Below, in pieces: positions 24,228 through 44,456 of a stretch of 64,000 nucleotides of DNA. How positions within the stretch are numbered: position 1 is the first letter of the stretch; each line of letters opens with the position of its first letter. The position numbers and the translations under genes are program-made. The notes below the pieces were generated by a model, which was not told the DNA's origin, made no database searches, and saw only the letters and a list, made by a program, of their open reading frames with translations. The stretch comes from Lentilactobacillus parabuchneri DSM 5707 = NBRC 107865 (GTDB lineage: Bacteria; Bacillota; Bacilli; Lactobacillales; Lactobacillaceae), in the NCBI RefSeq assembly GCF_001435315.1, contig NZ_AZGK01000002.1:138763-202762 (forward strand), read 5' to 3'.

Positions 24228-24255
24228 GCTTAATCCTCCCAAAATGAAACAATTT

Positions 24256-24547: not shown

Positions 24548-25261
24548 CTACTGCGCAGCAGACTGGTCGCATTTAATTTCTGCAGATTGTTTTTGGAAAA
24601 TTTCCTGCAGCTGAGCAGAGTTCAGTAACTCATCGCTTTGAATCAGCTTGTAGGCTCCCATAAATGTCGAGCTGATGAGTTCCTTGAGCTTTTCTTTCGG
24701 GAATTCATCGGGGTGTTGAAGCCAATCGTAGCACACCCAGGCAAAACCGCTGGATAGGAAAATAATCGTGTAATTCAAATCCCATTGGCGATCCCTGGTC
24801 GGATCATTTCCGAGTCGACCTCGGTTAAACAGCCCACCGACAAATGAAATTGCCTGCTTGACATCTTCTTGAATCATTCGAGTAAATAACATGGTGTCAA
24901 CGGTCGATACCAGCTTAATACCTCGACTATTGTGACTCATATAATCAACCGCTTGGCCAACAGATTGGATAATTGCTTCCATCGGATCATCCTGATTTTC
25001 CCAACCTTGGGAAAATTGGTTTAACTCCTTGGTGTACTTATCTTCCAGCTGGTCAAACAAGTCATACACGTCATGAAAATACGTGTAAAACGTCCGGCGG
25101 TTAATATGAGCGGCCTTGGTCACTTCGGTCACACTCACTAATTTGAGTAGTTCGCGGCCATCCGACAACCGGGTTGCGGCTTGACTTGTCGTCACTTTAT
25201 TTTCCATCACGGCAATAAACGCGCGAAAGATTGTTTGTTTCATCGAAATGTTTTGAAACAT
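24548..25261 (-). CDS. TetR/AcrR-family transcriptional regulator
   Basis: A 237-residue regulator. The N-terminal region (about residues 8-75) contains an HTH ending in KAAHINRRTFYTYFHDVYDLFDQLE, the recognition-helix signature of TetR proteins. The C-terminal all-helical ligand domain (about 85-220) carries the aromatic FAWVCYDWLQHP stretch common in the DhaS-like subgroup. It lies directly downstream of the giant gene on the same strand and could regulate it or its own operon. No operator was identified with confidence, and the ligand is unknown. Confidence 0.9.
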   Translation of the reverse strand: MFQNISMKQTIFRAFIAVMENKVTTSQAATRLSDGRELLKLVSVTEVTKAAHINRRTFYTYFHDVYDLFDQLEDKYTKELNQFSQGWENQDDPMEAIIQSVGQAVDYMSHNSRGIKLVSTVDTMLFTRMIQEDVKQAISFVGGLFNRGRLGNDPTRDRQWDLNYTIIFLSSGFAWVCYDWLQHPDEFPKEKLKELISSTFMGAYKLIQSDELLNSAQLQEIFQKQSAEIKCDQSAAQ

Positions 25262-25433: not shown

Positions 25434-28400
25434 CTAATCTACTGAAAACTTACGACGATGAGAAATCCAGACGTAACCAAGAACATCAAGCAACATTAGG
25501 AGTAATCCTAAAACTGCGATCAGGACTTGATTTCCGATATTCTCATTTGTTTGAGGTAACTTCTGTTGAGCCTTTAAACCATCTTTACCCGTCACTGAGT
25601 CAGGAACCAAGGCTGATTTTGGCGTCGTCATCCCTGATAATCCATTCATCTGTGACGAATTTGTTTCGGCGTTTCGATTACGGTTACCATTTTCATTATT
25701 TGTATTTTCGCTGACTTTATTCGATTTTCCATGATTGGTTGATGGGGTTGCAGGGAATTGGCTGTTCCCTCCAACATGATTACCTGTTGAAGGGACTTGG
25801 CTAGTTCCTCCGTTATTTGAATTATTGGAAGCATTTGGCAAACTCGGCAATGAGGAAGTGCCATCGGCGCTAACCGATGAGCCTCCAAGTGTCGGTAAGT
25901 TAATGAATCCATTATTCGTGGTACCACCAAACAATGATGAACCGAATCCATTTTGGGCACCCAGACCAACGATCGGAAGGATAATTGGCAAAAGTGCTGG
26001 AAGGACAACTGGAATACTGATAACAACTGGGAGTAATGGGACCATTGCGACAAGGACTGGCAATCCAAGGACAACGAGCGGCAATACAACCAGTGTGGAA
26101 ATGATGATTGGCAGTATGACTGGTAACAACACTGTCAATACAATTGGTAACAGTAACGGAAGCAAGGCAGCTAACAAGACCGGTACCAACAAGATCGGCA
26201 ATATCAACGGAACGATAATTGGGATAATGATTGGCAGTATAACCGTCTTATTTCGACCAACTAGGGTTTGAATCAATCCTGGCAAGATTGAAGCAAGCGA
26301 CTTAATCAGCGAGTTTGCGCCATTTCCGATTACGGCTAAAGTACTCATGAGAGGAATCAATGCTAACAACAGTGGCAAGCCATTGAAGTTAATATTGATG
26401 TTAATGTTATGATTCTTGTTCCCGTTCAACAGATTGCCCAGAAGGCTTCCCAGCAAGCCACCAATCAGTGGTGATAAGAAGTTCTTGAGCGTATTTCCAA
26501 GCTGCTTAATGCCATTAGCAATCAAGCCAGCTCCGATAAGTGGTAACACACCGAAGCCGATCAGCGGAAGAACAAAGCCCTTCATGAATGATTGGGTAGC
26601 ATTCTTCATCAGACTGTAGCCGATTAATAATCCTGTGTTGAGTACGAGAATTGTTTGTGCAATTTGACCAACTGTCTTCAACAAATTATCAAGCCAAGCT
26701 GGAACTTTGATGGTTGGAATCAATCGTGATAACAACGATAAGCCAACCATTTCGGCACCGAACAACGTTATGTTCATCAAGTTCTTTATCAACTGTGAAA
26801 GGCCACTCTTTAGTGAATCGGCCACAGTTGAAATTGCGGACTCAATGGCATTTACAACGCCGATCAAGCTTGTGTTGAGGTTATCAAGAACACCTTTGAA
26901 AATCAGGTTCAATAATCCAGAAACGATGTTCTTGCCCACGTTGAATAACGTGGTGATTGGTGCAAATAATACGGATCCAATTCCAGAAATGATTCCTGGA
27001 ATCACTTTCAAGAAACTAACGAGGTCAACCACATGAGTCAACAAGCGACCCAAGAGGAATCCAGGAAGACCAAGGATGACGGCATTGAAAATTGCGAGTG
27101 GATAAGTGATAACTTTACCCAAACCGGCAATCACGTTGCCAATCAACTCTGGAACTCCTTTGAACGAAAGTACTTGAATTGGGAATGTGATGAGCTTAAT
27201 GAAGAAGTTGGCAACATTTCCAAACATCTTGAAAATCTGCTGACCAAGTTGATTAAGCCCGTTCGTAACGAACCAAATTGGTGCAGTAACAGCAAACATC
27301 ATCAGATTAGTCAACGTGTTTTGAATGCCTTTAATCGCATTCCCAACAAATTTCTTAATCCCGTTCACTGTCATGATTGCTTGAAGAAGGCCGCCGATGA
27401 TCAACGGAACAACCGTATCAAATACCTTGAAGAACAAACCGTTCTTGACCAGTAATTTAACGAATTGAAGCGGTTTGATTCCAAATAACATCAAAGGCAA
27501 AATCAAGCCAAACGTGAGTAACTTACCTAATCCTTTTGTCAAACCACGGGTAATCAATGTCGCCAATCCGGATAAGGCAACTGTCTTAAACAGATTTTGT
27601 AAGAATGATCGACCGCCATTTAACAAGTTGCCAAGACCGGACAGAATAATCGCCGGCAGCCATTGAACGAAACTGTTGCCTAATAATGCCAATGGAACGG
27701 CAAGAATTAAGCGACCAAGTCTGTTACCAGGCAATGACAACAACAAGGTTGGTAAGAAGAACAATGGAGAAATAAGCGTTAAGCCTAAGCCGGTGAGACC
27801 ACTGGCAATCAGCGGCAAAACGAGTTGATTCATCAGCCAATTGAATGGGCCGACGACGACTTGCTGGTTAACTTGTCGTAAGAATCCAAGAACACCAAGT
27901 GCTCCAGGAACAATGGCAAATCCTGTCAGCAGATCGCCCAAGTGTTTGATTCCGCGAATGAAGAAAGTAAATGTTGAGCCGATCTTCATCAATCCCTGAA
28001 CGATTCCTTTGAGAACCTTGGGAACGACTTGACCTGCGTTCCACATCTTCTTGATGTTGGAAACAAACGATCCAATGGCTTTAAGTGGATTGCTGCCGTT
28101 TATGATGAATAATAAACCGGCAATGTTGAGCAACAATTTACCAAACAGGCTTGTGATCAAGTGGGTAATAATTGTTACCGCTCCAGAAATCAGGTGGAAT
28201 ACGAATGACCCTAATGCAAGGCCAATCCCCCAGATGGTTTGTAATCCCTTAAAGACGGTATTAACTGCGTTGACAATATTTTTCAATATGCCATTCAGTT
28301 TATTTTGAGCTTTGATTGTATCAATAACTGACTTCACGAATCCAACAATAAGAGTCAATGGATTCAATAAGGTATTGAGAAGTCCCAATCCAAAGAAGAC

Positions 28401-31400
28401 AGCAATTGGTACAAGGTTGTTGATGACGAGATCAAGAACGGGTTTGATGAACAAACTATACGGCAGGCCAAGCAGTGCCAGGCCGGCAGGAATCAATCCA
28501 CCAAGCAACATTGCGCCTTTGAACAGACCACCGAGTGGGTTGACGATATCAGGTAAGCCAAGAACGGCTAACTTAACGAATCCACCCAAACCATTTAAGA
28601 AGGCCTTAAATAAGTTAGGAATGACAGCGAACAACGACTTGATTCCGTTATTAAACAAGTCTTTGAGACCTTGGAACAATCCTGATAAGCCTGTCTTAAA
28701 CAAGTTATGTGCCAAATCTGTCAGTCCCTTGGTTAAAAGACCAATGAGGACTAGTGGCATTAACAAGCCGCCAAGCAAACCAGCTGCGATGCCAAGAGCC
28801 AAACGGCCGAAGTCGTTCATGATGTCTCCGGCAATGTTTCCAAGACCTTTGAAGCTATTAATCAATGAAGCAAACAGCTTAGGAACTTGATTCAATGCGA
28901 GTAACCAGTTAAGTGGGAAGATTGGCAACAGCAGTGAACCAAACATCTTAAACAGTGACATCCCTGCTGATAATCCTTCAGCAAGGGTCTTAAGACCATC
29001 AAGGACAAATGCAGATAACGGACCTAAGAGATCCTTTAAGACATTGCCCATCTTCTCAAACACGTTTAGCAATGGATGCTGACCATTCAAGACACTCTTC
29101 AAGACGTTAACCAATCCGATTAACGGCCAAGTGAACAATGCCAACGGTAAGAGAAGTAATTTCGCCAAATCAAGGGTTCCGTTAATCAATAACTGACCGA
29201 TTAGGTTAATCAAATCAGGAATTACTTGAGCCAATGACTTCATGTGCGCCATGATCAGTGGAATCAGCATTGCAACTCCAGCGATTAATGGCAATCCAAG
29301 TAAAGCAAGTGGACTCAGCAATAGTGAGATGATTGAACCGATCATCGTCGCGATGACTGGAATCATCAGCCCAATCAAAGGCATCCCGAGCAGACGAACA
29401 ATGGTTTGAGCAACACCTGCCAAGGTGGCAAAGATAATCAGTGGTAAGACCACATTCTTAATCAAGTCACCTAACAGCTTCAATGGATTGAGATCATTTA
29501 AGAACCCAAAAGTATTTTGAAGCAGTGCAAATGCTTGTTGAACAACCCCGATCCGTCTCAAAACATTCAATGCTGGAATGATTAGATTCATCAAGCTCAG
29601 AGCAGCTTTAACGATGTTACCCATAAACTTGGCAATCTGGCCGACAGTGAGCATCAAGCCAACAAGACCTGCTCCGATAAGCGGAAGAATCAGACTTGTC
29701 AATGGATTCAATAGATTTAACAATCCAAGAATCCCAAATCCGATGAGATTGAAAATCGTGGTAATTGGAGAAATAATCAAACGGCCTAGTGAACTGAAGA
29801 TCGTTTCCGGAATTGAGAATAACAATCCCGTGATTACGTTTGAAACTAATGACCATAATCCAGCTAATGCTTTATTAATAAAGTCATTGAGCTTCAAAGC
29901 TTGTTGCATCAACCAAGCTGGCAGGGTTAACAAACCACCGATCAAGCCCTTGGGAAGGATAACAATGATGTTCAAAATGGTTCTGAGCAAACTGTTGAGC
30001 AAGTTGTTACCAAAGAGCTTCTCGAATAAAGTGGTAACCGCGCCAGTAAGGAATCCAGCAACGTTTTTAATCAAACCTAGTAATGGATTAATGACGCCTG
30101 AAATTAACAGTGCAGGCAAAGCAATTGGTAATGCAACCAAGCCAATTGGCAGCAAGTTAATCAAAATTCCGAGCGGAATCAGGATTAAGCCTGGAAGACC
30201 AAGTGACAAGAGCATCGATAAGCCAATTACCGTTGAGAATGTCAGAGGAACGGCGGTCATGATAAAGATCGCGTAGTTCAATACGGCAAACATTCCCGGA
30301 ACCCAAGTTCCAACAATCATCCAAAGAATGTCAACAATTAAGGCGACAATCCAGCCAATGATTGGAATCAGGCCAATCCAATTTGCCATACCCCAAATTG
30401 GATTTTCCATAATCAGGTAGTAAATAAACAATTCAATTGGGAAGACGGATCCCAACCAACTTTGGGCAATCATAAAGGTTCCCGCAAGGAAGGCCGGAAT
30501 GGAAGCAACACCCAATACGGCAAAGATAACTGCGGCTAAAACAGCGGCCAATGGATTTGCGATAAATCCAGCAATTAATGCAAAGCGTAGGCTTCCGACA
30601 ATTCCAGGTAACGCAATTAGAGTTGCAACCAAGTCACCTATCAGCATCAATGGTAATGTGATCAGGGTAATGCCAACTCCAAGGAAGGCGGCCATTGGTA
30701 AGAGAACCCAGTAGCTTAAGAATGAAGGAACGTTAATTCCCAAATTCAAAACTTCTTGAAGAATGATGACGATTGCCCCAATTCCGACCACGATAAAGGC
30801 AATGAATGCCAAGGCGAGGACGGAAGGAATGGCGTTGAGAACGTACAATCCAATCAATCCGATTAATAACCACTTTGCGTTGAACAATGCAAGGCCGGCT
30901 AATAATCCGACACCTGGAATCAAGCTGATCACATTGACGTTTAATCTGAACAGATCCATAGTTCCCAATCCGAGGACTGCAAGTAATGGAAGCGCCAGGT
31001 AAGCGTAATTTGTGATGTTCTGGAACAAATTACCAAGTGGATTCAACCAGTTTGTGAACGAACCTTGGAAGAAGAACAGTGTGGCAGGAATGAAGATGCC
31101 ACCTAATCCCCAGTACAAGATTGGTTGAACAAACATCGTGTAAACCATGATAATAAATCCTTCAAAGTCGGCAATCGGGTTAACCGCTAATGTCAAGCCA
31201 ATTGGACCTAAGAACCAAGTCCAGATGATGTTGACAGCAATACCGTAAATGGTTCCAAGAACTAATCTGGCAATACCCAACACGATGGCTGGTAATGCAA
31301 GAAGACCAAGCAAGACCGCCCCACCGATAAGAAGAATTGGTAAGCCGAGCAATCCGGCTAATCCCAGTGATAAGAATTCTGCAGCACCGATGACGGTTGA

Positions 31401-34400
31401 GAATGTGAGTGGCACTTGAGTCATGATAAAGATGGCGTAGTTCAATAATGCAAACATGCCAGGTACCCAAGTACCCACAATCATCCAAATAACATCAACG
31501 ATTAGCGCAACAATCCAGCCAATAATCGGGATTAAGCCAATCCAGTTAGCCATCGCCCAAATTGGATTTTCCATAATGATATAGTAAATCGCCAATTCGA
31601 TTGGGAAGACTGACTTCAGCCAACTCTGTGCGATCATGAAGGTTCCGGCAAGAAATACTGGAAGTGATGCCACTCCAATCACACCGAAGTTAAATGCAGC
31701 CAGGATGGCAGCCAGTGGGTTAACCAATAAGCCACTAATCAAGCCAAGTCCCAAGTTACCAACGATGAAGGGTAATCCAATCAGTGTTGCCAAGAGATCA
31801 CCAACAAGCATGGATGGAAGGCTAATCAGAACAATTCCGACACCCAACATCGCAGCCATTGGCAAGAGGACCCAGTAACTTAAGAATGATGGAACGTTAA
31901 TTCCGAGGTTAAGCACTTCTTGAAGGATAATGACGATTGCGCCAATTCCGACCACGATGAAGACAATGAATGCCAGAGCGAGGACGGATGGAATGGCGTT
32001 AATCACAAATTGTGCGATCAAGCCGATTAACCCTAATTTAGCAAGTGTCAAAGCGATGAAGCCAATCAAGCCAACGCCTGGGAATAAGTTCAGCGTCAGC
32101 ATTGAAAGCCGAAGACCATCGATGGCACCGAGACCAAGTAATGCAAGAATTGGTAATGCAAATTTAGCAAAGAACGTGATTCCTTGATAGAGATATCTTA
32201 ATGGGTTCAGCCAGTTCATAAATGCCCCGGCAAAGAATAAGAAGGTTGTCGGAACCGTCAGACCTGCAAATGCGATATACAAAACAGGTTGAGTGAACAT
32301 AGTGTAAATTGCAATGATAAAGCCGATTGCATCAGCAACTGGGTTGACCATCAGATCTAGCGCGATTGGCCCTAAGAACCATGTAAAGATGATCAACGAA
32401 GCGATTCCGTAGACGAGTCCAAAGATTGCTTTGCCGACTGATTTAATAATGCTTGGAATAGCTAACAATCCTAGAAGAATTGCGCCTCCGATAAGCAAAA
32501 TTGGAGCGGCAAGAATTCCCAAAAGTCCAAGGGAAAGCAATAAGGAAACGCCGGTAATCATTGAGAATACCATTGGAATAGTTGTCAAAGCCCAAATTGA
32601 GTAATTCAGGAATGACATCATTCCAGGTACCCAAACACCCATGACGAGCCATAAGACATCAACGATTAAGGCGACAATCCAACCAATGATTGGTACCAGG
32701 CCAATCCAGTTAGCCATGGCCCAAATTGGATTGTTCATCACAACGTAGTAAACAAATTCTGCAAACGGGAAGACTGATGAAAGCCAGCTTTGGGCAATCA
32801 TGAAGGTCCCAATGAAGAATGCTGGGATGGCAGCAACTCCGAGAATTCCGAAGTTCAAAGCAGCTAAGAATGCAGCTAGTGGATTTGCTAAGAATGATTC
32901 AAGCAAGCCAAGTCCCAAGTTACCAACGATAAATGGCAACCCAATGAGCGTTGCAAACAAGTCGCTTACCAACATCGATGGAAGTATCAAGATGACCGAA
33001 AGGACACCTAAGACAGCAGCCATCGGTAAGAGTACCCAGTAACTCAAGAATGATGGTACGTTAATTCCGATGTTCAAGACTTCTTGAAGGATGATGACAA
33101 TCGCACCAATTCCAACAAGCAAGAAGACAATCGCACCTAAAGCGAGAATTGAAGGAATGACGTTAATCACATATTGCGTAATAAGTCCGATCAATCCAAC
33201 AACCCCATTGAACAAACCAAGATTTGCCAACAATCCCATTCCAGGAACAAGACTGATAAAGAGATCTGAAATTTGAAGACCAACAACGGCCGCAAAGCTA
33301 AGCAGCAAAATTGTCGGTAATGCAAATTTCGCAAAGGAAGTTAAGCCTTGGAACAAGATTCTCAGTGGGTTTAACCAATTAAGGAACATTCCGGCGAAGA
33401 ACAATCCCGTTACAGGAATGCTAATGGCGCCGAATACCCAGTAAAGAAGCGGTTGTTCAAACATGGTGTAAAGTTCGATAACGTAGCCAATGAAGTCGGC
33501 AATCGGGTTAACCGCCAAATCAAGTGCAATTGGTCCTAAGAACCAAACGAAGATGATGTTAGCTGCAATCCCGTAAATCAGGCTGCCGATCAATCCTGCA
33601 ATCGTTTTAATAATGCTTGGAATAGCCAACAATCCTAGAAGAATTGCGCCACCAATCAAATTAATCGGTAATGCAAGTAGACCAACAAGCCCCAGTGACA
33701 ACATCAGTGAAACGCCAATGATTGCAGAGAACGTGGTTGGAACGGCTGTTGAAATAAAGATTGCGTAGTTCAGAAGGGCAAACATACCAGGTACCCAAGT
33801 ACCCACGACCATCCAAAGAACGTCAACGATCAAGGCAACAATCCAACCGATAATTGGGAATAAGCCAATCCAGTTAGCCATTTCCCAAATCGGATTCTGC
33901 ATAATCAGGTAGTAAACAAATAATTCGAGTGGGAAGACGGATGAAAGCCAAGTTTGGGCAATCATAAATGATCCCGCAAGGAAGGCTGGAATTGAAGCAG
34001 CTCCGAGAATACCAAAGCTAAATGCAGCAATTGCTGCGGCAAGTGGATTTGCAACAAAGGCAGTCAATAATCCAAGTCCCAAATTATTAACGATAAACGG
34101 TAATGCCAACAAGGTGATATTGAAATCATCCCTGAGCATCAGTGGTAATGTGATCAAAATCGCAGTAACCGTTAAGATAACTGCCATTGGTAACAATACC
34201 CAGTAGCTCAAGTACGATGGCACGTTAATTCCGATATTCAATACTTCTTGAAGGATGATGACAATCGCACCAATGCCAACGACTAGAAAGACGATTGCAG
34301 CGCCTGCAAGTATTGATGGAATCGTGTTAATGACATACGCAGCAATTAAGCCGATCAAAGCCCATTTTGCAAGCCCTAATGTGAATGCGGAAATCAAACC

Positions 34401-37400
34401 AACTCCTGGAATGATACTAATTAATCCGGCCGATAAGCGAAGTCCATCAATTGCCAAGATCCCCAATACTGCAAGAACTGGCAATGCTAATTTAGCAAAG
34501 GAAGAAATACCATTAAAGATGTCCTTCAATGGGTTCAACCAATTAATGAACATTCCGTTAAAGAACAGAATCGTTGCAGGAATTAAGAAGATTCTAAATC
34601 CATAGAAGAGAACCGGCTGCGTAAACATGGTGTACAGCATGATGATAAATCCAACAAAGTCGGCAATTGGATCAACTGCTAATTTAAGCAGTAATGGACC
34701 TAAGAACCAATTAAAGACAATGTTGACACCAACGCCGAACAACAGATCAGGAAGCATTTGTAAGCCGTAACGAATGACAATTGGCAACCCAATTAGGCCA
34801 AGGACAACTGCTGCGCCAATGAGCAGAACCGGCAGTAAGAGCAAGCCGTTAATTCCAGTCGCGAGCAACAGTGAAACCCCAATGATCGCTGAGAAGGTTA
34901 GCGGAACTGCCGTCAAGATAAAGATCGAGTAGTTAACAATCGCTAAGATTCCTGGCAACCAGGTACCAACAATCATCCAAAGGACATCGACAATTAAGGC
35001 AACGATCCAACCAAGGATTGGGAATAAACCAATCCAGTTGGCCATTTCCCAAATTGGATTTTGCATTACAACATAGTAGAGGAACAGGTCAAATGGGAAG
35101 ACCGCGGCAAGCCAACTCTGAGCCACCATAAATGCACCAGCGAAGAATGCGGGAATCGATGCAAGACCGATAACGCCAAATACAACGTTTGCAAGGATGC
35201 CGGCGATTGGATTTGCCAAGAATGCGGTCAACAAACCAAATGACAAGTTACCAACAATGAATGGTAATTGAGTTATGACGGCAATCGCATCAGCGGCCAG
35301 CATCAATGTCAATGACATTAATATTCCCGCAACGGTGAGAATTGCGGCCATTGGAAGTAAAATCCAGTAACTCAAATACGATGGAACGTTAATTCCGATA
35401 TTTAGAACTTCTTGAAGTACGATCACAATCGCACCAATTGCAACAACGCCTAAAACAATGATTCCAGCCACAATAATTGACGGAATAATGTTAATGACGA
35501 ACTGCGCAATTAATGCTATCAATCCAATTTCACCTGCAGTCAATGCCAGCCATGAAAGTAAGCCAACACCTGGAATGAGGTGTAATCCGACCAGTGACAA
35601 CTTAAGAAGCTCAATGGCGACAAAGCTGCCCAAGCCAAGTAAGATCAGGGACCAAGTTCCAAAGTCGGAAATGGATTGGAAAATAAATCTCAATGGGTTC
35701 AACCAGTTTGCAAACATGCCAACAAAGAAGAATAACGTCAATGGAACGGTAATTAATCCGAAGACGATGTACAAAGCCGGTTGAACAAACATTGTGTAAA
35801 CCATGATGATGAAACCAACAAAATCAGTCATTGGATCTACAGCAAGGTTCAAGAAAATTGGACCTAAGAACCAAATCCAAATGATGTTGGCCGTCAAACC
35901 AATCAAAAGTGTTGGCAGCATAACCGCCAATAGACCACCTAAGATTGGTGCAACTGCGTTGATAATACCGCCGATGAAGTTGAGAATTCCCTTTACAAAT
36001 TGACCGGCAAACAGGCCAATCAAGCCTGAATTGACGTTATTGACAAGGCCTTCAACAAGCGTTAATGGTAATTCAACCAAAGCAGCAAGTAATGCGAGTG
36101 GGACGGTAATTCCGTTGACAACCGGAATCAGTGCGGTCAATAACCCAAGCAGGATCGTTGGAATAATTCCCAATAACTTGAGGGCACCGAACACCCCACC
36201 ATTCGTTAATAATCTGATCAATCCAGTAATTGCACCGCCGATAAGAGCTGGAATCAAGTTTGCAACAAACCCGTTAAAGATCTTGAATGGTAATTTTGCG
36301 AAGTTTAACAACCCTTTAACACCAAGGTTGATAAGACCAAGCAAAGGAAGACCAAATAACAAGCTGGCAACTCCGCCGATAAAGGCTAAGGCACCAAATG
36401 CCAACAAACTGATAACAGCATTCTTAAGGAAGTTTAAGACTGCAGTGATCGGTGAAAGTAACAATTTGAGTCCATTCTTGGCAAGACCAAATACTGAAAC
36501 AATTAAAGCGATGCCAAGAATTAAGTTTAATCCTGGAATAAGGCCTGGTAATGCAAGCAGGATAACTGCAAGCAGTGGATTGTTTTTCAACAAACCGCTC
36601 AAGACACGAATTCCAAGCAAGGTAACTGGGATGGCGATTGATACAGTTAAGCCGATTGCCCCAATAATCAGTGGCAAAATGAGCTTAACAACGCCATTCA
36701 AGGCTTTGAGACCAAAGCCCAGAGCTCCGGCAATTGCCTGATTCAACCATACAAGTGGCGTTAACAATAATTTAGCAACGCTACCAGCAAGTTGGCTAAG
36801 AATGATGGCACCGATGAACTTGGCAATGATTGTTGGAATTGTTAATAACAATTGCGCAATCTTGACGATGTTCAAGGCATTGGTCAAAAGATCCAATGGC
36901 AATACAATCAATTTAGCCAGCAATGAACCAGCTGTTAATGCAAATAAGAGACCTGCAAGCAGCAAGTGGCCGGGGACAGGAAGGATTGCGGTAACGATGG
37001 TTGCAAGCGCACCAAGTAATGTCGGCAATCCAGCTACGGCTTTAACCGCAAAATTCAAGAGGTTCAAGAATCCGAGGATAAAGTCCATCACTAAGCGGTT
37101 ACCAATCTTAAACAAGCCAACAAATAGATTTAAGGCCAAGACTGCCGCCAGCGAGAATGCTTTAACGGTATTAGTAATAAATTGTGATACCAAGCCTGGA
37201 AGTGCACTCAAGCCTTTAGTGATGATTGAAACCAAACCATTTAACAGTGTGTTTGAAAGAAGGATCATGCCTAGTCCAAGCAGACCGTTAAGTGCCAACA
37301 ATCCAAGAGTTGATAGGATCAACCCACCGATTGTCAGCGGTAAAGTGACCAAGAAGAACTTCGCTAATTGAAGTAACGTCTTGATGACATTTCCAGCCAG

Positions 37401-40400
37401 GCTTAACCCGCCAAGAACCAGTAAGCCGAACAAACCGGCACCAAGGGCAAATAATGTATCCTTGATAAGCGTTGAAATGACGTTTTTACCAAACGATAGC
37501 AAGGCTTTTAGCAAGTTTGATGGTAATGAGGTCAAGCCAGACCAGAGTGCCTTTAATAATCCTGAATTCAGCTTTCCAAGTAAGCTCAGCAATTCGTGTG
37601 GCAATGCCAGCAAAATTGTTGAGAAAAGCGCCAACTTGCGAACAAGATTGAGGGCCGGAATTCCAAGCCAAAGCGGCAAGGTCAAGCCACTCAAAATCAA
37701 TTGGCCAACAAGGGCAATTGCATTCAAGATAGTGGTGATAAATGACATCAATTTGAGTCCGGCTCCTAATAATAACGCCGCGATCAATGGGAAGATCAAA
37801 GACATTAAGTTCGTTAAGCCGAAGAAGTTACCGGCTAATTTGATCAGGAACGTTGGAATTGCAAGCAGATTTGCAAGCAACAAACCAGCGTTTAATAGTA
37901 ATGGCACACCGAATAAGAATAATCCGATTGGCCCTTGGGTAATCACACCGTTAACCAAATTGATGATGTTCATCAATGTTCCGATGGCAAGTGCCGGCAA
38001 CCAGCTGATTAAATCATTGGCGATTTGAACGATTGGGTTCAAAATCAGCAGCAAAATTAATCGGCCAATGGCAGAACCGATGCCACCCAGAAACATTAAT
38101 GGTGTTGAAACCAGCAGATTGAAGCCTAAGACTAAAAGCCCGGCCAAAGTGCCGATGACATCGGGAACAACGTTATTGAGAATTCCTTGGAAGATCATCG
38201 CTGGAATACCAAGCAATAGGCCAAGTAAGCCAGTAACGCCTTTAAAGTGGAATAAGCGTTTTAATAAGTTCGGGATGACATTAAAGAATCCATTGCTAAT
38301 GGACTTAACAATGTTCGTGATGCCACCTGCAATCAGCTTAACGATAAATGCGACGAATTGTGGCAACATAAAGTTGTTCACAAACATCTTATTCATGGTC
38401 TTGATGAGATCCCCAACGACACTCAGTGGTCCAAACCCAAATAAGGTATTAAAGATCGAACTGAGGATAGTTGGAATAATCGTCAGACCCACTAATAACA
38501 GATGCGTATTAATGACAGACTTAATAGTTGAAATAATTGTTCCCAAAACTGCTTTAATCGCATCAAAGACCCATTTGAGTTGTAATCCAACCGCAAAGAT
38601 TGCAGGCAGGATAACGGGGGCCAAGGCCAGCCACTTCAAACCAAATGGCAATAATAATCCCGAAATAACGGAACCGACTAATCCAATTGGTAAAAGTATG
38701 AGTGGTAAGCCAAATGAAATGAGCGCATTGAAGACGACCGGTAAGCCATTTTTCAGCAGCGAACTGATTGTTGCAACTGAACCGGCTAAGAATGCCGGCA
38801 GCCAGCTGAGCAAACTGTTCCCCAACAGAAGTAATGGGAAGTTAATGATCGATGAAACGATGTTATTCAATCCTGTTCCCAACAACATGGCAATTGGTAA
38901 GCCCAGCAAACCGGTAATAACTGGCAATGCCAAGCCGGTACCAATCACAGCGATTGCAGGCAACAGTAGATTTGCGATACTTGGTACTAAGATATTTGTA
39001 AGAATAGTGAGCGGTAAACTCAATATTGCCAATATTGGTGATGTCAAAATCTTAATACCAGTAATCGCTGGTATTATAAACAACAATCCGTTAAGAAGTG
39101 CCGCACCACCAACAACGGGGCTGACAACTGTCTTAATAACTTGTTGAATTTGACTTTCAATATTAGTGACAACATTTGCAGCTAAAGAACTTACTTTAGC
39201 AACGAGTTTAGCCGTTCCCGTAACCAAGTCGCGGAACAAACGGTTAGCAATGTTGATAACAACGAATGGCAAGCCGCCAAGTGCGATCGTTAATGGTAAG
39301 GTAGCCAATGTCAAAGCACCAACGACCAAACGAACGAACAGCGGACCAAGGGTTGTCGAAACCAGGCTACCTGTTTTATTAATAGCCTTTGTAACTGTTG
39401 TAGCTACTGTCGTAGCAATTGCTGTTAATGGAACAGCAATGAAAATCACATTGGTAAATTGTTTCAAGGTATTCAGGCCTGCTTTAATATTGTCAAAGAA
39501 TTTCTTAAGTGCCCAACCAGCAAGTGGAATGAGTGCTAGAAATGCCATGGCAATCTTAATCAGGGTTGGTGCGATGATGAACGCTGGGATGATTGCTCCC
39601 AAAGCAAGTGCTTGAATCACGTTCTTAGCACCCTGAATAAATTTGTTAATTGCTGATGTAGCTGAACTGAACAACTGACGACCCAACATTGTCAAAATTA
39701 ACGTGACAAGTGAAGCGCCAATTGCAAAACCAGCCAAAAGCGGCACGTTTGCTAAACCAGTGCCAAGGTTCAAAAGGTTTCCTGTGAGAACTGAGAAGGC
39801 CAATGCTGAAACAACTGAAAGAATCGCATTAATCGGATTAATGATTGATGAAACGACTCCCAGCAAAGGTGCAGCAAGGGCTAAATGACCAAGAACAGTC
39901 ATTGTTGTCGCGATTGCGTTGATTGAGCCAATGATGAAACCAGTAATAAAGGTTCCAAGATTTGAAATGGCAGCAACGGCATTCGCAATGTTACTAATTG
40001 TCTTGAAAATGACCGGAAGAACTGCAGCGGCAATTGCACCAGCTGCAACTGCGGTACCAATCATGGTCATGGTTGTTCCAATGGCAATTGCACCGCCAAT
40101 GGTTCCGAGTGTCCCGATGGTACCGATCGTTCCGACGACGCTTCCAATGGTAACAACAGTTCCGATTGTGACGGCCGCATCGATAACTGGCTTGGCGATC
40201 AATAAGCCACCAATAATCAATGGTGCATTAATCATAATCAGCCCAACGTTAATTAGTGCTGGAATAATGATTAGTGGGGCAATAAACGGAGCAGCTTTGA
40301 AAGCAACGTTGACAATTGATTTCGTAACTTTAACAATGTTAGAAACTGCTGAAACAGCTGAAGAAATGACCGAACCAACAATTGGAATGGTGGTTAAAGC

Positions 40401-43106
40401 ACCAATCGTTGAAACAGCAACAAATGCACCAATTAACCCAGGAATGATTGATAATGGATTAAAGACGTTGACAATGTTTGTGACAGGATTGCCACCAATA
40501 TTGAAAATGTTGGCCAAGCTGAACATTGACGATCCGCCGTTACTTGAAGCGGTATTTTCACTCGCTTCTTTTTGTTGCTTGCTGGTTTCTTGAAGGTCTT
40601 TGTAGTAATCGGAATTTTGAAGAATATCTGAATCAACAGCATCATCGAACATATCCGGTGTTGCGGATGATCCAAGTGACTTGAGCAATTGTGGCATGGT
40701 AGCAGTCAATGAACTCGGATTAGTTGCGTCCGGTTGTCCGTTGATGGTAACCAAGGCAGTCTTACCTGTTGTCAAAGGAATCTTGTAGTTCCAAACCTGA
40801 CTGTCGTTTGCACCGGCAACTGCCATTTTCTTAGCGATATCATTTAAAATCCAAGGATAATCCTTGACGATTTCGCCTTGTTCAGTGGCGTCTGCCCATG
40901 AACCAGTCTGGCTGGCAACTTGAGATTTGATATTATCAAAAATTGCGGTTCCATCTGAATCTTCAGTGTTTGCGGTTGATGACTGGGTATCACTTCCGTT
41001 CGACTGTTCAGCTGCAAGTTTCGTATACGTTGCTTTTGGATCACTTGCAGTTGGCGTCGGTGCGGTTGTGTACTTCGAGGTATTTAAAGTGCCATTGTCG
41101 TTGGTAAAGGTTGTTGACCCAACAACGGCATTATAAGCATCCTTGGCTGAAGCATTTTGGAGATTATTCTGCTCAGTTTGAAGATCCTTATAGTATTGTG
41201 ACTGCTTTAAAATATCCACATCAACTGCTTCGTCAAACATCCCGGTCTTCGATGAATTCCCTAAGGACTTCAACAGCGCTGGCATGGAAGCAAGCAGTGT
41301 TTTCTCATCAGCTTTTGCGGTACTTGAACGGCCGTCGATTGTAACCAACGCCGTCTTACCGGAAGTCAAAGGAACTGCGTACTTCCAAACTTGACCTTTT
41401 GTATCTTGATTAGCTGCCATCTTTGAGGCGATATCTTTGAGAATCCATGGATAGGATTTGATAATTTCACCTTGTTCGTTGACAGTGGCCCAAGTGGATG
41501 TTTGATTTGAAACGTTCTTCTTCACTGCGTTGAAAATTGCTTCGCCTTCAGAAGTTTGTCCTGTGGAGTTTGCATTATCAGTCGCTGAAGAAGTTGTTGC
41601 ATTTTGATCTGTCGTAGTCGCGGTTGATTGACTCTCTGCAGCTGAACTGACTGTTCCAGTGGAATTAGCCTGTGCAGTTGTTGGAGTGGTCGATGCCTGA
41701 CTGCTTTGATCATTTGACGATGTCGTGGTTGAAGTTGCACCACTAGTCGTTGCTGTTTCAGATGATTGCCCGGTAGTTGTCGTGGAAGTGCTCTGCTCAT
41801 TGGCGTATTTGTTATACGTTGCTTGCGGATCACTTGCAGCAGGAACTGGGGTTGAAACATACCCCTTTGTCGTTGAACCTTGTTGAATCTTGGTTCGTGA
41901 TAAAACGGTATTATATGCATCTGAAGCATTCACATTTTGCTGCTGTGATTGAGAAATTGACCCATCACTGTTGGTAGTAACAGTTGAATTTTCATTGGCA
42001 GCAGCTTGCGTATCTGCAGAAGAAGTCGTTGTTGCGGCTGACGCTTGAGTTGTCTGATTGGAACTTGTAGAAGTTGATTGAGCGGTTTGTGCTTGTTCAG
42101 ACGAACTCGTTGAATCAGTTGTCGTCGATTGTGAAGGAGCGGCTGCTTGAGTAGTTGAAGCTGATTGAACAACTTTACTTGCTTGCGGCCGATTGACTTC
42201 GGTTGAAGTGGTCCCTCCGGTAGACGATTTCGCAACAGCTTTGCCTTGTGTACTTACGTAACTTTGATTGTTCGAGTTGTTTGCTGACCGGTTCGCATAA
42301 CTTTGCTGACTTGTCGTCGCAGTACTGTCACTTCTTTGAGCTTCCTGGCTCTTAATACTGCTTTGCTGATTTGTCGTTGCATTGTTATTGTTTGCTGTTG
42401 GACTCGTTGCAGCCTGCTGCGTGTTAGTGGTACCAGTATGACTTTGACCCGTTGTTGCTTGTTGTGTCGCAGTATTATTGGTATTTTGCTGACTGGCAGT
42501 GTTCTGCTGAGTCGTTGCATTCGAGGAACTGGCCTTATGAGCACGAGCGGCTAATTTAAACGAATGAATTTGATCATTGTCAATTACCAGCTTGTGGTTA
42601 TCAAATGTTCCTTTGACTTCGGTTGTCATTTTCTTGTTCTTGGTTGGGATCGCATAAGCTTGTCCGTACAACCCGGAATTTAATGACTTTTTGAAAGTCA
42701 GAACCAATTCGTGGTCGCTCACCTTTTTATAGGAAAACGGCAACGATTTTTGATAACTGGCTCTTAAATTCTTCAAGTTAACGTTCTTGCTACTAAATTT
42801 AAAGTGAATCTGATCACCCTTCTTAAAGTAGTTGGCGCTGGTAGGCTTTAAGGCCACCTTCAACACTGGTACCTTATGAGAATACTTGATGGAAGAAGTA
42901 ATTGCCTGCTGGCTTTTACGTTTTGGCGTAAATGCTTTATGGACTGACTTATCTCCATCAGGTTTCTTCGCGTTGACATCAGCGTGGGCGTTTAACTCAT
43001 TGCCTAACATTACCTGAACTGAAGAATTCGCAAACAGCGGTGACATCAAGATCACTGTTGAAATCCCAGCGACCAAACGTAAGCCACGTTTGCTGTTCTT
43101 TTTCAT
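25434..43106 (-). CDS. Giant sortase-anchored hydrophobic repeat protein (5,890 residues)
   Basis: One uninterrupted 17.7-kb frame. Layout by residue: signal peptide 1-42; beta-rich head about 50-185; Ser/Thr/Gln/Asn-rich stalk about 190-510; two copies of a 199-residue unit (about 395-840) whose core reads EAIF...K...V..QT..WA and PWIL.DIA.KMA; a hydrophobic region about 852-5735 with dozens of segments of 15-25 apolar residues broken by short Asn/Gly/Pro/Lys turns; a hydrophilic tail about 5735-5845; then LPQTN, a membrane helix and RRKFSVD, a complete sortase A signal. Within the hydrophobic part, five 388-residue repeats span about 30170-35990, with motifs NPIWxMANWIGL, WFLGPI and GINVPSxLSYW. 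I know no family with this layout. The ribosome binding site GAGGAAAGG lies unusually far (about 19 bases) from the ATG. Role unknown; a hydrophobic cell-surface layer or giant membrane scaffold are both conceivable. Confidence 0.9.
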   Translation of the reverse strand: MKKNSKRGLRLVAGISTVILMSPLFANSSVQVMLGNELNAHADVNAKKPDGDKSVHKAFTPKRKSQQAITSSIKYSHKVPVLKVALKPTSANYFKKGDQIHFKFSSKNVNLKNLRASYQKSLPFSYKKVSDHELVLTFKKSLNSGLYGQAYAIPTKNKKMTTEVKGTFDNHKLVIDNDQIHSFKLAARAHKASSSNATTQQNTASQQNTNNTATQQATTGQSHTGTTNTQQAATSPTANNNNATTNQQSSIKSQEAQRSDSTATTSQQSYANRSANNSNNQSYVSTQGKAVAKSSTGGTTSTEVNRPQASKVVQSASTTQAAAPSQSTTTDSTSSSEQAQTAQSTSTSSNQTTQASAATTTSSADTQAAANENSTVTTNSDGSISQSQQQNVNASDAYNTVLSRTKIQQGSTTKGYVSTPVPAASDPQATYNKYANEQSTSTTTTGQSSETATTSGATSTTTSSNDQSSQASTTPTTAQANSTGTVSSAAESQSTATTTDQNATTSSATDNANSTGQTSEGEAIFNAVKKNVSNQTSTWATVNEQGEIIKSYPWILKDIASKMAANQDTKGQVWKYAVPLTSGKTALVTIDGRSSTAKADEKTLLASMPALLKSLGNSSKTGMFDEAVDVDILKQSQYYKDLQTEQNNLQNASAKDAYNAVVGSTTFTNDNGTLNTSKYTTAPTPTASDPKATYTKLAAEQSNGSDTQSSTANTEDSDGTAIFDNIKSQVASQTGSWADATEQGEIVKDYPWILNDIAKKMAVAGANDSQVWNYKIPLTTGKTALVTINGQPDATNPSSLTATMPQLLKSLGSSATPDMFDDAVDSDILQNSDYYKDLQETSKQQKEASENTASSNGGSSMFSLANIFNIGGNPVTNIVNVFNPLSIIPGLIGAFVAVSTIGALTTIPIVGSVISSAVSAVSNIVKVTKSIVNVAFKAAPFIAPLIIIPALINVGLIMINAPLIIGGLLIAKPVIDAAVTIGTVVTIGSVVGTIGTIGTLGTIGGAIAIGTTMTMIGTAVAAGAIAAAVLPVIFKTISNIANAVAAISNLGTFITGFIIGSINAIATTMTVLGHLALAAPLLGVVSSIINPINAILSVVSALAFSVLTGNLLNLGTGLANVPLLAGFAIGASLVTLILTMLGRQLFSSATSAINKFIQGAKNVIQALALGAIIPAFIIAPTLIKIAMAFLALIPLAGWALKKFFDNIKAGLNTLKQFTNVIFIAVPLTAIATTVATTVTKAINKTGSLVSTTLGPLFVRLVVGALTLATLPLTIALGGLPFVVINIANRLFRDLVTGTAKLVAKVSSLAANVVTNIESQIQQVIKTVVSPVVGGAALLNGLLFIIPAITGIKILTSPILAILSLPLTILTNILVPSIANLLLPAIAVIGTGLALPVITGLLGLPIAMLLGTGLNNIVSSIINFPLLLLGNSLLSWLPAFLAGSVATISSLLKNGLPVVFNALISFGLPLILLPIGLVGSVISGLLLPFGLKWLALAPVILPAIFAVGLQLKWVFDAIKAVLGTIISTIKSVINTHLLLVGLTIIPTILSSIFNTLFGFGPLSVVGDLIKTMNKMFVNNFMLPQFVAFIVKLIAGGITNIVKSISNGFFNVIPNLLKRLFHFKGVTGLLGLLLGIPAMIFQGILNNVVPDVIGTLAGLLVLGFNLLVSTPLMFLGGIGSAIGRLILLLILNPIVQIANDLISWLPALAIGTLMNIINLVNGVITQGPIGLFLFGVPLLLNAGLLLANLLAIPTFLIKLAGNFFGLTNLMSLIFPLIAALLLGAGLKLMSFITTILNAIALVGQLILSGLTLPLWLGIPALNLVRKLALFSTILLALPHELLSLLGKLNSGLLKALWSGLTSLPSNLLKALLSFGKNVISTLIKDTLFALGAGLFGLLVLGGLSLAGNVIKTLLQLAKFFLVTLPLTIGGLILSTLGLLALNGLLGLGMILLSNTLLNGLVSIITKGLSALPGLVSQFITNTVKAFSLAAVLALNLFVGLFKIGNRLVMDFILGFLNLLNFAVKAVAGLPTLLGALATIVTAILPVPGHLLLAGLLFALTAGSLLAKLIVLPLDLLTNALNIVKIAQLLLTIPTIIAKFIGAIILSQLAGSVAKLLLTPLVWLNQAIAGALGFGLKALNGVVKLILPLIIGAIGLTVSIAIPVTLLGIRVLSGLLKNNPLLAVILLALPGLIPGLNLILGIALIVSVFGLAKNGLKLLLSPITAVLNFLKNAVISLLAFGALAFIGGVASLLFGLPLLGLINLGVKGLLNFAKLPFKIFNGFVANLIPALIGGAITGLIRLLTNGGVFGALKLLGIIPTILLGLLTALIPVVNGITVPLALLAALVELPLTLVEGLVNNVNSGLIGLFAGQFVKGILNFIGGIINAVAPILGGLLAVMLPTLLIGLTANIIWIWFLGPIFLNLAVDPMTDFVGFIIMVYTMFVQPALYIVFGLITVPLTLFFFVGMFANWLNPLRFIFQSISDFGTWSLILLGLGSFVAIELLKLSLVGLHLIPGVGLLSWLALTAGEIGLIALIAQFVINIIPSIIVAGIIVLGVVAIGAIVIVLQEVLNIGINVPSYLSYWILLPMAAILTVAGILMSLTLMLAADAIAVITQLPFIVGNLSFGLLTAFLANPIAGILANVVFGVIGLASIPAFFAGAFMVAQSWLAAVFPFDLFLYYVVMQNPIWEMANWIGLFPILGWIVALIVDVLWMIVGTWLPGILAIVNYSIFILTAVPLTFSAIIGVSLLLATGINGLLLLPVLLIGAAVVLGLIGLPIVIRYGLQMLPDLLFGVGVNIVFNWFLGPLLLKLAVDPIADFVGFIIMLYTMFTQPVLFYGFRIFLIPATILFFNGMFINWLNPLKDIFNGISSFAKLALPVLAVLGILAIDGLRLSAGLISIIPGVGLISAFTLGLAKWALIGLIAAYVINTIPSILAGAAIVFLVVGIGAIVIILQEVLNIGINVPSYLSYWVLLPMAVILTVTAILITLPLMLRDDFNITLLALPFIVNNLGLGLLTAFVANPLAAAIAAFSFGILGAASIPAFLAGSFMIAQTWLSSVFPLELFVYYLIMQNPIWEMANWIGLFPIIGWIVALIVDVLWMVVGTWVPGMFALLNYAIFISTAVPTTFSAIIGVSLMLSLGLVGLLALPINLIGGAILLGLLAIPSIIKTIAGLIGSLIYGIAANIIFVWFLGPIALDLAVNPIADFIGYVIELYTMFEQPLLYWVFGAISIPVTGLFFAGMFLNWLNPLRILFQGLTSFAKFALPTILLLSFAAVVGLQISDLFISLVPGMGLLANLGLFNGVVGLIGLITQYVINVIPSILALGAIVFLLVGIGAIVIILQEVLNIGINVPSFLSYWVLLPMAAVLGVLSVILILPSMLVSDLFATLIGLPFIVGNLGLGLLESFLANPLAAFLAALNFGILGVAAIPAFFIGTFMIAQSWLSSVFPFAEFVYYVVMNNPIWAMANWIGLVPIIGWIVALIVDVLWLVMGVWVPGMMSFLNYSIWALTTIPMVFSMITGVSLLLSLGLLGILAAPILLIGGAILLGLLAIPSIIKSVGKAIFGLVYGIASLIIFTWFLGPIALDLMVNPVADAIGFIIAIYTMFTQPVLYIAFAGLTVPTTFLFFAGAFMNWLNPLRYLYQGITFFAKFALPILALLGLGAIDGLRLSMLTLNLFPGVGLIGFIALTLAKLGLIGLIAQFVINAIPSVLALAFIVFIVVGIGAIVIILQEVLNLGINVPSFLSYWVLLPMAAMLGVGIVLISLPSMLVGDLLATLIGLPFIVGNLGLGLISGLLVNPLAAILAAFNFGVIGVASLPVFLAGTFMIAQSWLKSVFPIELAIYYIIMENPIWAMANWIGLIPIIGWIVALIVDVIWMIVGTWVPGMFALLNYAIFIMTQVPLTFSTVIGAAEFLSLGLAGLLGLPILLIGGAVLLGLLALPAIVLGIARLVLGTIYGIAVNIIWTWFLGPIGLTLAVNPIADFEGFIIMVYTMFVQPILYWGLGGIFIPATLFFFQGSFTNWLNPLGNLFQNITNYAYLALPLLAVLGLGTMDLFRLNVNVISLIPGVGLLAGLALFNAKWLLIGLIGLYVLNAIPSVLALAFIAFIVVGIGAIVIILQEVLNLGINVPSFLSYWVLLPMAAFLGVGITLITLPLMLIGDLVATLIALPGIVGSLRFALIAGFIANPLAAVLAAVIFAVLGVASIPAFLAGTFMIAQSWLGSVFPIELFIYYLIMENPIWGMANWIGLIPIIGWIVALIVDILWMIVGTWVPGMFAVLNYAIFIMTAVPLTFSTVIGLSMLLSLGLPGLILIPLGILINLLPIGLVALPIALPALLISGVINPLLGLIKNVAGFLTGAVTTLFEKLFGNNLLNSLLRTILNIIVILPKGLIGGLLTLPAWLMQQALKLNDFINKALAGLWSLVSNVITGLLFSIPETIFSSLGRLIISPITTIFNLIGFGILGLLNLLNPLTSLILPLIGAGLVGLMLTVGQIAKFMGNIVKAALSLMNLIIPALNVLRRIGVVQQAFALLQNTFGFLNDLNPLKLLGDLIKNVVLPLIIFATLAGVAQTIVRLLGMPLIGLMIPVIATMIGSIISLLLSPLALLGLPLIAGVAMLIPLIMAHMKSLAQVIPDLINLIGQLLINGTLDLAKLLLLPLALFTWPLIGLVNVLKSVLNGQHPLLNVFEKMGNVLKDLLGPLSAFVLDGLKTLAEGLSAGMSLFKMFGSLLLPIFPLNWLLALNQVPKLFASLINSFKGLGNIAGDIMNDFGRLALGIAAGLLGGLLMPLVLIGLLTKGLTDLAHNLFKTGLSGLFQGLKDLFNNGIKSLFAVIPNLFKAFLNGLGGFVKLAVLGLPDIVNPLGGLFKGAMLLGGLIPAGLALLGLPYSLFIKPVLDLVINNLVPIAVFFGLGLLNTLLNPLTLIVGFVKSVIDTIKAQNKLNGILKNIVNAVNTVFKGLQTIWGIGLALGSFVFHLISGAVTIITHLITSLFGKLLLNIAGLLFIINGSNPLKAIGSFVSNIKKMWNAGQVVPKVLKGIVQGLMKIGSTFTFFIRGIKHLGDLLTGFAIVPGALGVLGFLRQVNQQVVVGPFNWLMNQLVLPLIASGLTGLGLTLISPLFFLPTLLLSLPGNRLGRLILAVPLALLGNSFVQWLPAIILSGLGNLLNGGRSFLQNLFKTVALSGLATLITRGLTKGLGKLLTFGLILPLMLFGIKPLQFVKLLVKNGLFFKVFDTVVPLIIGGLLQAIMTVNGIKKFVGNAIKGIQNTLTNLMMFAVTAPIWFVTNGLNQLGQQIFKMFGNVANFFIKLITFPIQVLSFKGVPELIGNVIAGLGKVITYPLAIFNAVILGLPGFLLGRLLTHVVDLVSFLKVIPGIISGIGSVLFAPITTLFNVGKNIVSGLLNLIFKGVLDNLNTSLIGVVNAIESAISTVADSLKSGLSQLIKNLMNITLFGAEMVGLSLLSRLIPTIKVPAWLDNLLKTVGQIAQTILVLNTGLLIGYSLMKNATQSFMKGFVLPLIGFGVLPLIGAGLIANGIKQLGNTLKNFLSPLIGGLLGSLLGNLLNGNKNHNINININFNGLPLLLALIPLMSTLAVIGNGANSLIKSLASILPGLIQTLVGRNKTVILPIIIPIIVPLILPILLVPVLLAALLPLLLPIVLTVLLPVILPIIISTLVVLPLVVLGLPVLVAMVPLLPVVISIPVVLPALLPIILPIVGLGAQNGFGSSLFGGTTNNGFINLPTLGGSSVSADGTSSLPSLPNASNNSNNGGTSQVPSTGNHVGGNSQFPATPSTNHGKSNKVSENTNNENGNRNRNAETNSSQMNGLSGMTTPKSALVPDSVTGKDGLKAQQKLPQTNENIGNQVLIAVLGLLLMLLDVLGYVWISHRRKFSVD
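30170..35990 (-). repeat. Five in-register 1164-bp (388-codon) coding repeats
   Basis: The codons just after the TTGAA of the conserved QEVLN(I/L)GINVPS block fall at 35417, 34253, 33089, 31925 and 30761. Successive differences are 1164, 1164, 1164 and 1164 bases. Each unit contains, in order, WFLGP(I/L), an Asn/Asp-Pro turn, QEVLN, PS(Y/F)LSYW, NPIW(E/A/G)MANWIGL and GWIVALIVD(V/I)(L/I)W. No net insertion or deletion has accumulated between anchors even though the bases have diverged visibly. Confidence 0.85.
40900..41900 (-). repeat. Two 199-codon repeats in the stalk of the giant protein
   Basis: Each unit has a pre-segment with A-S-D-P-(Q/K)-A-T-Y and a following segment EAIFNAVKKNV.. 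or TAIFDNIKSQV.., then PWIL(K/N)DIA.KMA and TSGKTALVTI(D/N)G or TTGKTALVTING. The two IF cores lie about 595 bases apart (near 41545 and 40950). I do not recognise the domain. Confidence 0.75.
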
Positions 43107-43118
43107 GGCGGATATGTT

Positions 43119-43133
43119 TCACATCCTTTCCTC
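43119..43133 (-). promoter_or_regulatory. Start-stop (ATG TGA) element in the giant-gene leader
   Basis: On the minus strand GAGGAAAGG is followed at once by ATG TGA (43124-43119), then 12 bases to the giant-gene ATG. The ribosome binding site is spaced for the start-stop codon pair rather than for the true start. It could hold ribosomes ahead of the giant frame. This is a reading of spacing only. Confidence 0.3.
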
Positions 43134-43751: not shown

Positions 43752-44456
43752 ATGAAACAGTTAGATAAAAAATTGATTGGCACAACTTTGGGGGTGGCAT
43801 CCCTCCTATTGACCATGACTATCATCGGCACAACACCTACCCACGCAGCCGATACGTTTGCTAAAAATGAAATTAGTGGTCCTAAAGGCTACTTCAAAAG
43901 CGATAAAGCTCAGTTTTCCTTTTATTGGAAGTATCTCAAGACCAACAAAGGGGTTCAGACTATTCTGATTTTCGGCGATTTCAAACAACCACAACTCCAG
44001 ATCGGGATGCCTGTTTTAAACACGATTAGCAAGGATCGAAAGACCTTCACCTCACAGTACAAATTTGTCAGTAACAAAGGGAAATTACTCAACCAAAAAT
44101 TTTACTTTCCAATTATTAAGTTAAGCGATGCCACTTACCAAATTCACTTGGCCTATCACAATGGTGCTCGTGTCCCCAGCGCAACTGGAAAGGCATATGT
44201 CTTTACCAAGACCAGTAAATCTCCCGCAACGACTTATGCAAACAAGTACAGCAAGCCAAGCTTAACCAAGCAGTACACGGCCCAATTGGAAAAATCCGCC
44301 GAAAAACAATACAGACAGCAGCGAGCCAAGGGTAAGAATGTCGCTAACCCTGCTAAAAACAAAACCGTTCAAAAAAAGATTAAAGCCAAGGTTAATTCAG
44401 CCGTTAAGAAAAACGTGAAGCAGTTGATTAAAGGGTTTAATTACGACGTAAAGTAG
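43752..44456 (+). CDS. Secreted hypothetical protein with basic C-terminus
   Basis: A 234-residue protein with a clear signal peptide (residues 1-34, ending THAADT). The mature N-terminal part (about 40-165) is beta-rich and Tyr/Phe-rich and may fold as a small beta-sandwich. The C-terminal part (about 170-234) is highly basic with many Lys/Gln/Ala and could bind the cell wall or anionic polymers. There is no sortase motif. The ATG at 43752 follows AAAGGGAAATT; an earlier in-frame ATG lacks a site. I do not recognise a family. It diverges from the giant gene across the hairpin array. Confidence 0.75.
   Translation: MKQLDKKLIGTTLGVASLLLTMTIIGTTPTHAADTFAKNEISGPKGYFKSDKAQFSFYWKYLKTNKGVQTILIFGDFKQPQLQIGMPVLNTISKDRKTFTSQYKFVSNKGKLLNQKFYFPIIKLSDATYQIHLAYHNGARVPSATGKAYVFTKTSKSPATTYANKYSKPSLTKQYTAQLEKSAEKQYRQQRAKGKNVANPAKNKTVQKKIKAKVNSAVKKNVKQLIKGFNYDVK

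Follow-up and report, generated by a model that had tools for sequence, protein, structure and literature searches.

A protein that sortase anchors to the cell wall should have a body that can be secreted, and linkage to the wall would be unexpected for a polytopic membrane protein. Piezo-like proteins are large polytopic membrane proteins in which one chain carries many hydrophobic helices in repeated units. Among the Lactobacillaceae, the Giant1-5 proteins of Apilactobacillus kunkeei are surface proteins of 3,000-8,000 amino acids (aa), reported to lack predicted transmembrane domains and to have C-termini of an SH3b-like kind (PMC12863079). Among proteins longer than 5,000 aa, a survey found no transmembrane helix in the majority but at least one in many (PMC11573180), and giant proteins of Vampirococcus (1,392-4,163 aa) were inferred to lie at the membrane and cell surface (PMC8080830). 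Here we describe a giant gene in a stretch of 64,000 nucleotides from Lentilactobacillus parabuchneri DSM 5707 = NBRC 107865 (the window, within which all positions are counted). A preliminary description of this stretch had noted one 17.7-kb reading frame, mostly hydrophobic and with a complete LPQTN sortase signal; this holds exactly, at positions 25434-43106 with 5,890 aa, and we add that the gene lies on the minus strand. It had also pointed out that a protein for export and wall sorting should not carry membrane-like segments. That paradox is real; our searches gave no known architecture that resolves it, and in open-licence PubMed Central (PMC) papers no report was recognised as describing the family.

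The protein is rich in leucine (18.1%), isoleucine (10.9%), glycine (9.5%), alanine (9.4%), and valine (8.0%), with just 1.8% aspartate and 1.0% glutamate. Its hydrophobic body covers residues 870-5730 (∼4,860 residues), with a grand average of hydropathy (GRAVY) of 1.41 in flank 1, 1.59 in the units and 1.12 in flank 2, and contains stretches of up to 110 residues without any K, R, D or E. The whole protein holds 163 non-overlapping 19-residue windows with a Kyte-Doolittle mean >1.6, of which the signal peptide and the sorting signal contribute one each, and a simple hidden Markov model (HMM) placed 160 hydrophobic segments within residues 870-5730. Many of these have the length and hydrophobicity of bilayer-spanning segments, as in polytopic proteins. 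The body had been described as near-continuously hydrophobic; strongly hydrophobic it is, but it is not featureless, being organised as flanks and five 388-residue units. At the C-terminus an LPxT motif, a hydrophobic stretch and a basic tail are present as in LPXTG proteins, but the mature part is not free of membrane-like segments.

On sequence evidence, the window giant is a real, conserved coding gene. Against its L. parakefiri relative, the ratio of nonsynonymous to synonymous substitution rates (dN/dS) was 0.136 over 5,852 aligned codons. By region it was 0.084 in residues 1-190, 0.184 in the serine/threonine (S/T)-rich stalk, 0.120 in the soluble modules, 0.131 in flank 1, 0.079 in the units and 0.200 in flank 2; residues 5721-5890 are the least conserved region, at 0.51. 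Codon usage correlated with that of 14 other open reading frames (ORFs) of the window (r 0.90), whereas the five remaining frames of the same DNA reached 0.69-0.75; relatives likewise carry long frames. The low dN/dS, the matching codon usage and the long frames of relatives all argue for more than a chance frame. The artefact that the preliminary description named as its refutation, a fused or frameshifted set of genes, can be dismissed for the window copy, though many homologues are themselves broken.

A search for homologues, proposed there as a check, found them in other Lentilactobacillus and beyond. Counting the window's own genome here and below, units occur in 4/24 genomes of the genus, in eight of 397 genomes of the family sample (seven credible), and in 3/395 of the order sample. 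The eighth family match, in a 132-aa frame of G301 (E 7e-4), was judged not credible. A pattern search of genome contigs matched 41 stretches, nine of which encode a relative, at seven loci. The parallel once drawn with bee-associated lactobacilli stands in that giants do occur in Lactobacillaceae, but the named relatives belong to Lentilactobacillus, Secundilactobacillus and Companilactobacillus rather than to bee symbionts. G310 (C23) carries two giants in tandem. The first has 8,103 open codons, and its body has no significant 388-residue unit, showing instead two repeats offset by 1,452-1,638 residues; the second runs through ∼240 codons, an in-frame TAA and 8,113 open codons to a stalk and LPQTG. 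An LPQTL inside the body of the first is a chance occurrence and no sorting signal. Just upstream of the giant of Secundilactobacillus kimchicus lies a second, shorter related gene (L037:1-3288). Short paralogs were found in four genomes as open frames of 1,146-1,243 codons (one at L077:932-4507), with a giant-type head and two modules; they terminate in a hydrophobic domain of ∼430 aa with GRAVY about 2.2 and a conserved GFW..SD end. These paralogs also show a 26-column local match to the 388-residue unit, at about equal relative position.

The C-termini of the relatives differ. LPQTN is found in all four Lentilactobacillus giants, although in L. parakefiri the signal is cut by a stop. The motif IPSVGFWVHNDPL stands near the end of all six giants of the genus Companilactobacillus, followed soon by a stop in five and by a stalk leading to LPQTG in one; those five end shortly after ..VGFW.HNDPL without LPXTG, and no sorting signal was found in them or within 700 bases after their stops. 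The window genome has one Pfam sortase match above cut-off (PF04203) and a single SecA match, at 926.5 bits narrowly under the SecA2 cut-off of 930. The latter is taken as the housekeeping SecA because frames that by eye resemble hpf and prfB flank it; no accessory SecA2 was identified in this genome, in a search limited to SecA among the accessory Sec components.

The preliminary description had offered two options, a body embedded in the membrane or a secreted hydrophobic polymer. The first seems somewhat better supported, because no sorting signal was found in five of the six Companilactobacillus-genus giants, because in short paralogs the giant-type ectodomain is followed by a very hydrophobic C-terminal domain, and because the one SecA found lies beside prfB. 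We give a little under an even chance to a surface adhesin held by an outsized polytopic membrane body, and tied to the wall as well where a sorting signal exists. The N-terminus would be exported by the general Sec route, and the head, the S/T-rich stalk and the two soluble modules would stand outside the cell. The following ∼4,860 residues, with roughly 150 hydrophobic segments, would form a single, very large helical body within the cytoplasmic membrane, after which the chain would re-emerge outside and, in Lentilactobacillus, its LPQTN end, a motif present in the sequence, would be joined to the wall by sortase. Through this body, the extended adhesive arm would be tethered to the membrane and the wall simultaneously.

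Several observations weigh against this membrane-held adhesin. The sixth Companilactobacillus-genus giant, the second of G310, does have LPQTG, and an ancestral sorting signal was possibly lost in the other five. In a home-made and noisy positive-inside test, a simple two-sided HMM, no alternation of K/R was detected in the window giant (log-likelihood ratio, LLR, -2.56 over 162 segments), against a summed LLR of +11.0 over 176 segments for 18 control ORFs with GRAVY above 0.45 (12 positive, six negative); elsewhere the LLR was -5.95 over 254 segments for the first G310 giant, -0.19 over 31 for the kimchicus flank and +0.27 over 15 for a short paralog. An AlphaFold2 model of two units is confident and all-helical (predicted local distance difference test, pLDDT, 86), but 10 of its 29 helices are 36-55 residues long, beyond one bilayer span unless kinked. 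N, P and L are unusually high in the flanks.

The same test and the same helices, longer than a bilayer span, would suit a chain that is secreted whole, its greasy part serving outside the cell, within the wall or on its surface, as a coat, a glue or a layer that holds lipid, in the manner of an LPXTG adhesin. The domain order is indeed that of a classical LPXTG adhesin, in one G310 giant as well, and the flanks, strongly net positive (K/R 68 against D/E 14, and 82 against 27), would also be suited to binding anionic lipid or teichoic acid outside the cell. However, segments this hydrophobic should exit laterally from the Sec channel, no SecA2 was identified in the search limited to SecA, and no sorting signal was found in most Companilactobacillus-genus giants; we consider secretion of the body less likely, at roughly one chance in four.

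The core of the body, residues 2403-4342, consists of the five tandem units (self-search offsets of 388). Units had no relative in Pfam, NCBIfam, PDB sequences, plasmids or viral contigs, and no significant Foldseek match to a solved structure. Positions invariant among 31 aligned units include W10, D26, N65, N68-P69, G169, P231, W263, P282, P294 and G297, and D26, D97, R100, D204 and D305 are among those most often charged. Profile searches gave a count of five in all eight countable arrays, those of the window, L. parakefiri, L. kefiri, C. furfuricola, C. versmoldensis, C. zhongbaensis, S. kimchicus and genome G364; a frameshift cuts unit 3 in C. versmoldensis and C. zhongbaensis, and the L. 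sunkii gene, split between the ends of two contigs that bear one unit apiece, was left out of the count. In a tree of 40 units the grouping was mainly by lineage rather than by position in the array: all 15 units of the L. kefiri group fell together, as did the five of S. kimchicus and the four whole units of C. zhongbaensis. Units of equal position do pair in the kefiri group and, in part, among furfuricola, versmoldensis and G364, so those arrays predate the species that carry them; in the latter three, the fifth units stand apart on a long branch. Constraint tests, covering positions 1, 2 and 4 on a tree with long branches, rejected a single cross-genus clade for units 1 (approximately unbiased test, p-AU 8e-114), units 2 (4e-77) and units 4 (2e-6). 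Several lineages thus appear to have homogenised or rebuilt the array independently, with the count staying at five.

The unit number looks constrained, since it is five in every countable array although units mostly cluster by lineage, and the five fixed units suggest a closed or otherwise number-locked assembly. One doubtful form of this, to which we give about one chance in five, is a five-fold ring or pore made by a single chain in the membrane together with two flanking hydrophobic bodies, held to the wall by sortase and with the head outside as an adhesin; it would have more membrane-inserted helices in one polypeptide than any protein known to us. The number might instead be locked by topology and not by shape: with an odd number of spans per unit, gain or loss of one unit would flip everything downstream, and no ring would be needed. 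The equal count in 8/8 arrays fits this, and the model leaves the spans per unit unsettled, but three or seven units would be permitted too and are unseen among the eight arrays, and gene conversion alone would likewise preserve the count, which leaves a topological lock rather improbable.

Twelve giants were inspected for damage, the shorter S. kimchicus upstream gene being left out. Two are intact (the window giant and the first of G310), three are open to contig limits (sunkii, kimchicus, G065), and seven are broken. The L. parakefiri giant has two in-frame stops, one within the sorting signal; the L. kefiri giant is interrupted by an IS3-type transposase gene (rve and HTH_21 matches); G364 and the second giant of G310 have an in-frame stop each. 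One frameshift was seen in each of the furfuricola, versmoldensis and zhongbaensis giants, the first and last of which were viewed only short of their starts. The remainder of the broken frames is mostly open, pointing to on/off switching or to a recent loss in strains kept in culture, with sequencing error possible case by case, and the breaks suggest that the giant is easily lost. Runaway repeat growth of little function, in which an expendable surface protein expands by duplication and is then lost, would fit these seven breaks and the patchy distribution (credible units in seven of 397 family genomes), but it is very improbable given a dN/dS of 0.136 overall and 0.079 in the units, a fixed unit count and two intact giants of 5,890 and 8,103 codons.

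The head (residues 1-190) was matched in 17 of the 397 family genomes, and its predicted beta-sandwich fold resembles adhesin-type domains. The nearest known domains are CNA/MSCRAMM-type and pilin beta-sandwiches (Cnm, ACE, RspB, CNA, LrpA), CNA/MSCRAMM adhesins being characterised by an IgG-like N2-type domain fold, but integrin and macroglobulin domains score 9.4-9.5, so any kinship or ligand is at most putative. In sequence, the head had no Pfam match to such domains at E <= 1 and none beyond chance among PDB sequences (best E 2.3). For body, head and modules together, Pfam gave no family at E <= 1, and the NCBIfam matches were all sub-cut-off and at the C-terminal end. The two soluble modules are alike, residues 455-671 being 43% identical to 659-866 in a self-search. 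In seven other Lentilactobacillus genomes the head matches lie in open frames of 307-629 codons, and no hydrophobic body was seen around the head-only genes in the three genomes inspected (G002, G004, G007). These genes consist of a head and an S/T-rich part; in G004 an in-frame stop interrupts the gene, and a relative of the ∼234-aa neighbour described below adjoins it.

This divergent neighbour adjoins the giant in the window, parakefiri, kefiri, sunkii and kimchicus, and is not exclusive to it, being found in 49/397 family genomes. The TetR-like frame follows the giant in all four Lentilactobacillus (parakefiri, kefiri and sunkii alike by eye). The leader is conserved in the same four, and the putative hairpin sits between an AGGAAA resembling a Shine-Dalgarno sequence and the ATG, where it would shorten a long spacer. 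Further out, positions 22461-24242 (minus strand) encode a phosphatase of the PAP2 type; in this Gram-positive genome it carries a beta-strand repeat of the autotransporter type (PATR). The product of 44603-45610 (minus strand) weakly matches the helveticin J family (PF17312, E 1.7e-6).

Features of the giant gene and its surroundings, with positions in the window
Feature	Position	Strand	Details
Giant gene	25434..43106	-	5,890 codons + stop, ATG start, single open frame
Signal peptide region	42981..43106	-	residues 1-42; typical, judged by eye
N-terminal beta-sandwich head	42561..42914	-	residues 65-182
S/T-rich stalk	41757..42539	-	residues 190-450
Soluble module 1	41133..41744	-	residues 455-658
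Soluble module 2	40509..41132	-	residues 659-866
Hydrophobic flank 1	35901..40499	-	residues 870-2402
388-residue unit 1	34737..35900	-	residues 2403-2790
388-residue unit 2	33573..34736	-	residues 2791-3178
388-residue unit 3	32409..33572	-	residues 3179-3566
388-residue unit 4	31245..32408	-	residues 3567-3954
388-residue unit 5	30081..31244	-	residues 3955-4342
Hydrophobic flank 2	25917..30080	-	residues 4343-5730
C-terminal S/N/G-rich stalk	25560..25916	-	residues 5731-5849
Sorting signal	25437..25559	-	residues 5850-5890; LPQTN at 5850, hydrophobic stretch, basic tail ..WISHRRKFSVD
Divergent neighbour, ∼234-aa secreted protein	43752..44456	+	without Pfam match
TetR-like regulator, directly downstream	24548..25261	-	weak, sub-cut-off family matches
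Possible small hairpin	43110..43126	-	GGATGTG-AAA-CATATCC, paired by eye

The giant would offer a test of how Sec and YidC cope with about 150 hydrophobic segments in succession, bears on how a membrane body and the wall become covalently joined, and raises the question why the repeats are homogenised and yet their number stays at five. Its hosts are food-type lactobacilli, so it is directly testable.

Like sortase-anchored LPXTG adhesins, the giant has a putative signal peptide (judged by eye), a beta-sandwich head, an S/T-rich stalk and an LPxT end, in a genome with a sortase; unlike them, it has ∼4,860 hydrophobic residues between head and anchor, and in 5/6 of its Companilactobacillus-genus relatives no sorting signal was found. 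From Piezo-like proteins it differs in its sortase signal and adhesin-like head, and in units that have neither a sequence match nor a significant Foldseek match to a solved structure. With Giant1-5 of A. kunkeei it shares the rank of a very large Lactobacillaceae surface protein, but the window giant has a hydrophobic body and an LPQTN end; those giants, reported to lack transmembrane domains and to have SH3b-like ends (PMC12863079), are thus of another kind. For the Vampirococcus proteins, compared by description only, neither hydrophobic repeat units nor a sortase signal is described in the accessible text (PMC8080830). Set beside these systems, the giant family seems to combine a membrane body and wall linkage at 5,900-8,100 residues.
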